Shown here: one piece after another, positions 5,442 through 12,059 of the stretch
Layout: each line of letters opens with the position of its first letter
How positions within the stretch are numbered: position 1 is the first letter of the stretch
Source: Frankiales bacterium
GTDB lineage: Bacteria; Actinomycetota; Actinomycetes; JAFAQI01
Length of the DNA stretch: 52,705 nucleotides
NCBI GenBank assembly: GCA_025980465.1
Contig: JAICXJ010000020.1
Span: 1-52,705 of the forward strand
Direction of reading: 5' to 3'
Position numbers and translations under genes: made by a program
Notes under the pieces: generated by a model
What the model saw: the letters and a program-made list of their open reading frames with translations, nothing else
Database searches by the model: none
What the model was told of the DNA's origin: nothing

Positions 5442-7828
<2,387 letters not shown>

Positions 7829-10268: not shown

Positions 10269-11297
10269 CTACCCGGCTGCCGTGACCAACCGTCGGCCGA
10301 GCATCGGCGGCAGATCGCGTATTGCGGCCGCGAGCGACTGCAGATCGACGTCGACCAAGGCTTGCGGCCCGTCACACAACGCCGCCCCCGGCTCGGGGTG
10401 GAGGTCGACCATCACCGCATCGGCGCCGGCGGCGATCGCGGCGCGCGCCAGCGGTACGACCAGTTCGCGCCGTCCCCCGGCATGCGACGGGTCGACGATG
10501 ACCGGCAGATGAGACAGCGAGTGCACCAGTGGCACCGCGCTGATGTCGAGGGTGTTGCGGTAGGCGGTCTCAAAGGTGCGGATCCCGCGCTCGCACAGCA
10601 CGATGTCGAGGTTGCCACGCTGCGCGATGTACTCCGCAGCCATCAACCACTCTTCGATCGTTGCGTTCATGCCGCGCTTGAGCATCACCGGCTTGCCGGC
10701 GCTGCCGGCGGCCTGCAGCAAGGCGAAGTTCTGCATGTTGCGAGTGCCGATCTGCAACATGTCGGCGTACTCACTCACCAACGGCACGTCCTGGGCGTCG
10801 ACGACCTCGGTGACGATCGGCAGGCCGGTCTTCTCGCGCGCCTTGGCCAGAATCTTCAGTCCCGCCTCACCGAGACCTTGGAACGCGTAGGGCGAGGTGC
10901 GGGGCTTGTATGCGCCGCCGCGGAGCAGAGCCGCTCCGGCGTCCTTCGCCATGCGAGCGGCCGCGATGGTCTGATCCTCGGTCTCGACGGCGCATGGCCC
11001 GGCGATCAGCGTGAAGGTATCCGGGCCGATCGGGACACCGGCGACCTTGACCGTCGATGTCTCCGGATGGTTCTCCCGGCTGACCAGCTTGTAGGCCGAG
11101 GAGATCCGGACGACGTTGTCGACACCCGGCAGTGCCTGCAGGTTCAGCGTCTCGAAGCGTTCGACGTCGCCGACGAGGCCGACGATCGTGCGGTGCACGC
11201 CGCGGCTGACGAATGCCGAGCCGCCCGCTGACTCGACCGTGCGCACCACGGCGTCGAGCTCCTCGACTGTCGCCTCCGATGTCATGACCACCACCAT
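10269..11297 (-). CDS. aroF: DAHP synthase, class I beta (Thermotoga type) with N-terminal regulatory domain
   Basis: 342 residues. It catalyses the same reaction as the class II enzyme at 6.5 kb but is unrelated in sequence. Residues 1-70 form a ferredoxin-like domain (VEELDAVVRTVESAGG, RTIVGLVGD), the usual feedback domain of this subclass. The TIM-barrel part shows IAGPCAVE, LRGGAYKPRTSPYAFQG, QIGTRNMQN, MLKRGM and DPSHAGG, which hold substrate and metal ligands. The start is preceded by CGAGGAGACGAATAGCG. Upstream lie a terminator and an aromatic leader peptide, so expression should fall when aromatic amino acids are plentiful. Confidence 0.95.
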   Translation of the reverse strand: MVVVMTSEATVEELDAVVRTVESAGGSAFVSRGVHRTIVGLVGDVERFETLNLQALPGVDNVVRISSAYKLVSRENHPETSTVKVAGVPIGPDTFTLIAGPCAVETEDQTIAAARMAKDAGAALLRGGAYKPRTSPYAFQGLGEAGLKILAKAREKTGLPIVTEVVDAQDVPLVSEYADMLQIGTRNMQNFALLQAAGSAGKPVMLKRGMNATIEEWLMAAEYIAQRGNLDIVLCERGIRTFETAYRNTLDISAVPLVHSLSHLPVIVDPSHAGGRRELVVPLARAAIAAGADAVMVDLHPEPGAALCDGPQALVDVDLQSLAAAIRDLPPMLGRRLVTAAG

Positions 11298-11333: not shown

Positions 11334-11364
11334 AAAAAAGGCCCCAGGGCGATTGCCCGGGGCC
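11334..11364 (-). terminator. Attenuator terminator in the aroF leader
   Basis: On the minus strand GGCCCC-GGGC pairs with GCCC-GGGGCC (one bulged base, ten base pairs, 4-nt loop) and is followed by six T. It lies 21 nt after the leader peptide stop and about 37 nt before the aroF start. This is where a ribosome-controlled transcription attenuator should sit. A competing antiterminator could involve CCGGG within the leader codons, but that pairing is short and not secure. Confidence 0.85.
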
Positions 11365-11384
11365 GTCGATGCGGAGTGCGCGTG

Positions 11385-11477
11385 CTACTCCACCCGATCG
11401 AGCATCAGCCCGGACCCGGTGTAATAGCTAAAGAACCAGCACGTCACGAGGTGGATGCTACCGGAAAGGCGCGACAT
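11385..11477 (-). CDS. Leader peptide of the aroF attenuator
   Basis: A 30-codon frame ending TAG whose middle reads Cys-Trp-Phe-Phe-Ser-Tyr-Tyr (codons 13-19). All three aromatic amino acids, the end products of the pathway, occur within six codons. Stalling there under aromatic starvation would change folding of the downstream terminator at 11334-11364. Starts are possible at ATG 11483, ATG 11477 (GAGAG 6 nt upstream) or GTG 11447, and all share the aromatic run. The rest of the 327-bp spacer up to 11624 shows no convincing promoter on the minus strand. On the plus strand TAATCT (11539-11544) may serve the next gene. Confidence 0.8.
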   Translation of the reverse strand: MSRLSGSIHLVTCWFFSYYTGSGLMLDRVE

Positions 11478-11624
11478 CTGCATCTCTCAGCCGCAACTGA
11501 CCGCGTTTCCTCAGGTGCCGTCCTCGCTCAACTCTCGCTAATCTGACTGCGCTGGAGCCAGCAGGTGGACGCGGGAGCCTGACAGCGGGCGTTCCGGGTA
11601 CCACCCCGATCCGAGGGGCCGACC

Positions 11625-12059
11625 ATGCCGAGCGACGCCACCATTGCCGACGCGTTTGCCGCCACGGACCTGTTCGCGTCGCTCGACCAGCGGACCATCA
11701 AGCGGCTCGCGACGGCCGCCAAGAAGATCGAACATGCGGCCGGGCGAGAGATCACGACGCAGGGTGAGGGTGCGGTCGGTTTCCACCTCATCCTGTCGGG
11801 TTCCGCCACCGTCACAGTGAATGGCGAGGAGACCGGACGGATCGGGCCCGGCGACTACTTCGGCGAGATCTCGCTCATCGACGGCAAGCCGCGGACCGCC
11901 ACGATCGTCACGGATACCGACATGACGACCGCGGCGATCACGGCCTGGCAGTTCCGGCCGATGCTCGACGAGGTTCCGGATCTGGCAAGGGCGCTGCTGC
12001 TGGTGATGTGTGAGCGGGTGCGCAAGGCCCAAGCCAAAGCCATCGTCATGGCACCCTGA
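11625..12059 (+). CDS. Cyclic nucleotide-binding domain protein
   Basis: 144 residues made almost only of a cNMP-binding (CRP-type) beta-roll. The phosphate-binding cassette reads GDYFGEISLIDGKPRTATI (about residues 86-104) with the Gly-Glu and Arg-Thr-Ala residues that contact cAMP or cGMP. No helix-turn-helix, kinase or cyclase part follows, so it is a stand-alone sensor rather than a transcription factor. The start is preceded by GAGGGGCCGACC. It lies alone between aroF (divergent) and the EamA transporter (convergent). Partner unknown. Confidence 0.85.
   Translation: MPSDATIADAFAATDLFASLDQRTIKRLATAAKKIEHAAGREITTQGEGAVGFHLILSGSATVTVNGEETGRIGPGDYFGEISLIDGKPRTATIVTDTDMTTAAITAWQFRPMLDEVPDLARALLLVMCERVRKAQAKAIVMAP

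Follow-up and report, generated by a model that had tools for sequence, protein, structure and literature searches.

A probable ribosome-mediated attenuator with a mixed Trp/Phe/Tyr leader upstream of a type I-beta DAHP synthase gene in actinobacteria

RESULTS

In the window, which is the 52,705-nucleotide stretch of contig JAICXJ010000020.1 of a Frankiales bacterium analyzed here at its full length, a short reading frame rich in codons for tryptophan (W), phenylalanine (F), and tyrosine (Y), an intrinsic terminator, and an aroF-like gene for a type I-beta 3-deoxy-D-arabino-heptulosonate 7-phosphate (DAHP) synthase follow one another on the minus strand. We consider it very probable that these elements form a ribosome-mediated transcription attenuator of the synthase gene operating through a W/F/Y leader peptide on a leaderless mRNA. 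At the level of sequence and its comparison among relatives, the promoter box, the leader, its codon content, the terminator, and the conserved alternative pairings are all recognizable. A short leader abounding in codons for the pathway's end products and a terminator between leader and structural gene are present; an antiterminator excluding the terminator and a protector overlapping the control codons are present as predictions, which for the window taken alone are not significant compared to shuffled sequences. The first-pass annotation had drawn attention to a C-W-F-F-S-Y-Y frame before a strong terminator upstream of a class I DAHP synthase gene, and every one of these parts was recovered, with the synthase now assigned to type I-beta.

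Leader, promoter, terminator, and synthase gene

The leader peptide gene (11385 to 11447, minus strand) starts with GTG 11447, comprises 20 codons (MTCWFFSYYTGSGLMLDRVE), and ends with the stop codon TAG at 11387-11385. Its control codons TGG TTC TTT AGC TAT TAC (W-F-F-S-Y-Y) occupy positions 11421 to 11438. The -10 promoter box TAGCAT (11460-11455) is followed by CCACCTC and then by the GTG. As this box lies 7 nt upstream of the start codon and no Shine-Dalgarno sequence is present, the mRNA is probably leaderless. Leaderless leader peptides are known for trpL and leuL of Streptomyces lividans (PMC8079986).

The 30-codon leader proposed at first, extending from ATG 11477 to the same stop codon, was confirmed with respect to the frame and its aromatic run, but not with respect to its start. 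Conservation at the protein level among relatives is confined to the part from GTG 11447 onward. ATG 11477 and a further in-frame ATG at 11483 were rejected as starts, being unconserved, lacking a -10 box at the right distance, and lying in the promoter region; the stretch before the GTG shows no conservation as protein either. The comparison of relatives' sequences therefore identifies GTG 11447 as the true start of a leader shorter than the 30-codon frame. When the start was set at the closest ATG or GTG that precedes the aromatic run in the same frame, irrespective of any promoter, 72 of 76 leaders had a TANNNT motif 6 to 8 nt upstream. The distance was 7 nt in 55 cases, and no spacing outside the 6- to 8-nt range occurred more than twice.

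The terminator (11334 to 11364, minus strand) is composed of a hairpin at 11364-11340 (GGCCCCGGGC/GCCCTGGGGCC) and a T6 tail at 11339-11334, and the leader stop lies 20 nt upstream of it. The 101-nt stretch from the leader to the terminator folds more stably than shuffled sequences (z = -4.25). The synthase gene (10269 to 11297, minus strand) starts with ATG 11297, located 36 nt downstream of the terminator and preceded by its own GGAG 10 nt 5′ of the ATG; the gap between leader and synthase gene amounts to 87 nt. Its product contains the domains PF00793 (DAHP_synth_1) and PF18152 (ferredoxin-like regulatory domain), the combination characterizing it as type I-beta. No second type I DAHP synthase was found in this genome beside the I-beta gene.

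Recurrence of the leader in related genomes

Orthologous I-beta synthase genes were taken from whole genomes belonging to the same class as well as from named genome contigs, and the region upstream of a gene was scored as a hit when it contained a -10 box, a start codon, and at least three W, F, or Y residues in codons 2 to 13. This arrangement was present in 74 of the 143 upstream regions, compared to none on the antisense strands and 0.2 on average after dinucleotide shuffling. Many of the 74 are related and hence do not represent independent events, and they are spread over at least 11 actinobacterial families. All three aromatic amino acids are encoded in 61 of these leaders, Phe and Tyr only in 12, and Trp and Phe in one. 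The runs in the window's own family are WFFSYY and WFGYF. FWRFYGYRP was found in Nocardiopsis and relatives, WSFWYGDGP in Microbispora, and VYFFWFDQP in Actinomadura; other relatives contain the mixed runs YYWFTDG, FRFFSYGDAP, WFFGYY, and FWYDYEF, and the Nocardioides run YFFGHLPGAP lacks Trp. The leaders begin within about six codons before the run, within which W, F, and Y substitute for each other, and the peptide beyond it (LDRVE, ALR, AAAA, RRTR) is not conserved between families.

A stringent search for a hairpin followed by T residues detected a terminator in 53 of 75 leader-bearing regions but in none of 52 regions without the leader, and with a looser search a strong hairpin was found after every leader. 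These results, obtained by comparing upstream regions, indicate that the terminator belongs with the leader. An alignment of relatives in which the terminator was kept and the aromatic codons were lost had been named in advance as the outcome that would speak against attenuation; instead, both are kept or lost together.

The codon usage within the run differs strongly from that of the synthase genes. In 28 high-GC genomes for which both sequences were available, TTT accounts for 32 of 53 Phe codons in the run versus 1 of 161 in the synthase genes, and TAT for 26 of 37 Tyr codons in the run versus 2 of 149. The preference for TTT and TAT may slow decoding through wobble pairing or may keep region 1 of the leader RNA (see below) weak, and the data are compatible with both explanations.

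Alternative RNA helices

In five relatives from the same family, the RNA from the start codon to the T tail can be aligned, and the single three-base indel in the coding part is a Phe codon of the run. The run thus differs in length by exactly one codon with the reading frame kept. Three mutually exclusive helices are predicted in these five sequences. Region 1 (11408 to 11428, minus strand, as are the following), which overlaps the Tyr codons, may pair with region 2 (11384 to 11403, the codons L-D-R-V-E-stop) to form a protector. In the predicted compound antiterminator, the 3′ part of region 1, GTCCGGG (11415-11409), forms an outer helix with the 5′ arm of the terminator and encloses GCTCG...GGTGGAGT paired with ACTCCGC...CGAGC, that is, region 2 with region 3 (11355 to 11377), which starts with ACTCCGC and extends into the terminator 5′ arm. 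The third helix is the terminator itself. Of the 125 cells of the alignment that correspond to antiterminator pairs, 122 retain the pairing; the window retains 24 of its 25, and at five positions the bases have changed in a pair-preserving manner. The C-terminal LDRVE would be conserved because its codons form region 2, as suggested by the modeled pairing.

A simple duplex between leader and terminator was also considered. Overall, such duplexes were stronger with their own partners than with swapped ones, the observed mean not being reached in any of 5,000 permutations. As the whole antiterminator of the window, the simple duplex was rejected, because it is weaker there than with swapped partners, and the compound helix is preferred.

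Predicted effect of ribosome position

Equilibrium folding of the complete RNA prefers the terminator in all states, and a switch would therefore have to be kinetic. Accepted models of attenuation likewise depend on kinetic order. Since the states could not be told apart at equilibrium, we folded the RNA again at the stage at which the 3′ arm of the terminator has yet to be made, with the bases up to 13 nt from the A-site codon hidden. In 39 representatives, the predicted mean probability of the 5′ arm of the terminator being paired with upstream RNA was 0.82 for a ribosome stalled at the first aromatic codon, compared to 0.64 when the middle part was shuffled and 0.27 for a ribosome that had reached the stop codon. 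The corresponding values in the window were 0.86 at W4, 0.86 at F5, 0.89 at F6, 0.74 at Y8, 0.68 at Y9, and 0.30 at the stop codon. A terminator-excluding antiterminator, for which RNA folding had been proposed as a check, is thus predicted.

Neighboring genes and other aromatic leaders

The gene upstream of the leader is divergent, and no gene ends there on the minus strand. Between an EamA transporter gene and the leader, positions 11625 to 12059 of the plus strand encode a single-domain cyclic-nucleotide-binding protein. The window also contains a class II DAHP synthase gene (6503 to 7828, plus strand; PF01474), which likewise appears leaderless, with TACCCT followed after a few nucleotides by GTG 6503. 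We looked for an aromatic leader before this gene and for a leader of trpE elsewhere in the genome, but found neither. A link between the leader and loss of the class II synthase was dropped as an explanation, as most leader-bearing genomes, including this one, possess the class II enzyme.

Three further arrangements were observed. In Jiangellaceae, a conserved stretch MPKIFRCWRNYN... precedes the synthase gene at approximately -170 to -94; its frame was excluded as a leader, as it has no -10 box. The other two lie outside the class. Two metagenome-assembled genomes labeled as delta-proteobacterium and Syntrophaceae share MDRKLNAN(I/V)xFYGYWFYxYxxSVCPxLRRTC before the I-beta synthase gene. This conserved mixed F/Y/W leader extends from -218 to -122 relative to the gene in one of them and from -211 to -115 in the other, and two hairpins with T tails are arranged in tandem behind it. 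Two metagenome-assembled genomes of Solirubrobacterales share CTGGCGATTTAGCTAGGCGCT upstream of the synthase gene, with a frame ending in ..TWRFS or ..YAWRFS before the stop codon, perhaps another aromatic leader.

DISCUSSION

Our results support the proposal of the first-pass annotation that the aromatic leader acts by attenuation: control codons and terminator are kept together, the run changes by one codon, and the predicted antiterminator is maintained by pair-preserving changes. According to the model, transcription would begin at or beside the G of GTG 11447, and the ribosome would load at the 5′ end of the RNA without a Shine-Dalgarno sequence. Scarcity of charged tRNA-Trp, -Phe, or -Tyr would stall it at codons 4 to 9 and keep region 1 from forming the protector, enabling region 2 to pair with region 3 and GTCCGGG with the terminator 5′ arm. 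The compound antiterminator would form before the terminator 3′ arm is made and would allow readthrough into the synthase gene. When aromatic amino acids are plentiful, the ribosome at the stop codon would cover region 2 and leave the 5′ arm free, the terminator would form, and transcription would end. In the event that the leader is not translated, the protector hairpin would also favor the terminator. Translation of the leader, stalling, the switch itself, and its response to Trp, Phe, and Tyr individually are components of the model that we infer. Escherichia coli trpL and pheL use the same four-segment logic based on ribosome position; they differ from the window leader in being single-amino-acid leaders with Shine-Dalgarno sequences and branch-enzyme genes downstream.

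Several observations weigh against attenuation. The leader is absent from about half of the upstream regions sampled, including those of several other families and of three genera of the same family, in which the synthase gene directly follows the EamA transporter gene. The antiterminator alignment consists of only five closely related sequences, and the simple leader-terminator duplex of the window is weaker than those with swapped partners. Moreover, the stalled-state value of the window is not significant, being reached by 20% of the shuffled sequences, and equilibrium folding, as described above, always favors the terminator.

The further suggestion of the first-pass annotation, that one leader could integrate the supply of Trp, Phe, and Tyr, appears plausible. 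We see about an even chance for the broader proposal of a widespread three-input attenuator, in which a single leaderless leader would read the charging of tRNA-Trp, -Phe, and -Tyr, scarcity of any one would turn on the shared first step, and the slow wobble codons TTT and TAT would tune the response, with occurrence in at least 11 families of actinobacteria and, as a separate case, a mixed leader in Syntrophaceae. Sensing might in practice be restricted to one or two aromatic amino acids, e.g., Phe, the other codons being tolerated neighbors, and we regard this as a possibility to be taken seriously, although a somewhat doubtful one. It is suggested by the aroR leader of Corynebacterium glutamicum, whose codons are F-Y-F and which responds to Phe limitation only (PMC11802643), by the lack of Trp codons in the 12 leaders of Nocardioides and some others, and by the weaker antitermination predicted for the last Tyr codons, where the stalled ribosome covers part of a pairing segment. 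On the other hand, 61 of 74 leaders contain all three residues, which interchange within the run, and each of the five aromatic codons of the window gives a predicted antiterminator value between 0.68 and 0.89, compared to 0.30 at the stop codon.

A TnaC-like arrest, in which the nascent peptide would stall the ribosome upon binding of a free aromatic compound rather than in response to uncharged tRNA, is improbable. Motifs extending beyond the aromatic residues, such as YGDGP and YGYRP, are shared within some families, but the nonaromatic part of the peptide differs completely between families, the tails that are conserved fall on paired segments of the RNA, and neither the order nor the length of the run is constant. 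Even less credit is due to a role of the leader mainly in reinitiation or in translational coupling of the synthase, instead of attenuation. Actinobacterial leader genes have been proposed to boost translation through short-distance reinitiation (PMC4833913), but this was put forward for gaps of some 10 bp, whereas the gap here contains a strong terminator and spans 87 nt, and the synthase gene has its own GGAG. A constitutive or bidirectional terminator next to a fortuitous frame is hardly tenable: GC-rich hairpins are common in such genomes and 0.8 terminator-like sites per 2.4 kb are expected by chance in the scan, but the divergent neighbor leaves no minus-strand gene end to terminate, and the co-occurrence of leader and terminator across families, the codon bias, and the codon-sized indel already contradict it.

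The closest known system to the attenuator proposed here is aroR-aroF of C. glutamicum, likewise an actinobacterial aromatic-codon leader before a class I DAHP synthase gene subject to ribosome-mediated attenuation. Its codons are Phe-Tyr-Phe without Trp (PMC4046766), in contrast to W-F-F-S-Y-Y in the window, and it responds to Phe but not to Tyr (Neshat et al. 2014, as reported in PMC11802643). Since the C. glutamicum genome contains the type I-alpha family TIGR00034 and no PF18152, the regulated genes are not orthologous. The trp attenuators of Corynebacterium and Streptomyces (PMC1262725, PMC8079986) resemble the window leader in their protector/antiterminator/terminator logic and, in S. 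lividans trpL, in the leaderless peptide gene (PMC8079986), but contain only Trp codons and precede trp genes. In Acholeplasma, the uORFC-13-1 motif places an upstream open reading frame with at least one Phe codon and a terminator before aroF (PMC8632094); this motif of Mollicutes differs in having Phe as its only aromatic codon and a ribosome-binding site. When Actinobacteria were surveyed in 2005, none of the RNA regulatory structures reported belonged to Phe or Tyr operons (PMC1262725). In the openly searchable literature, we found no description of a DAHP synthase gene preceded by a leader that combines Trp, Phe, and Tyr codons. Rfam models, including Trp_leader, T-box, and riboswitch models, gave no match in the window up to an E value of 1 and none at the gathering threshold in nine related loci.

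Trp, Phe, and Tyr have the entry enzyme of their synthesis in common, a situation that bacteria often handle with several synthases, each sensing one product. If the proposal holds, a single leader reading all three aromatic amino acids would be a compact alternative to several product-specific synthases. It would also offer a clear example of attenuation in which the mRNA is leaderless and ribosomes load at the 5′ end, and would add a regulatory RNA that is absent from Rfam. The presence of the leader in Nocardiopsis, Microbispora, Actinomadura, and relatives makes the model testable in cultured strains, and for aromatic overproduction in actinomycete engineering it would represent a defined element to remove.
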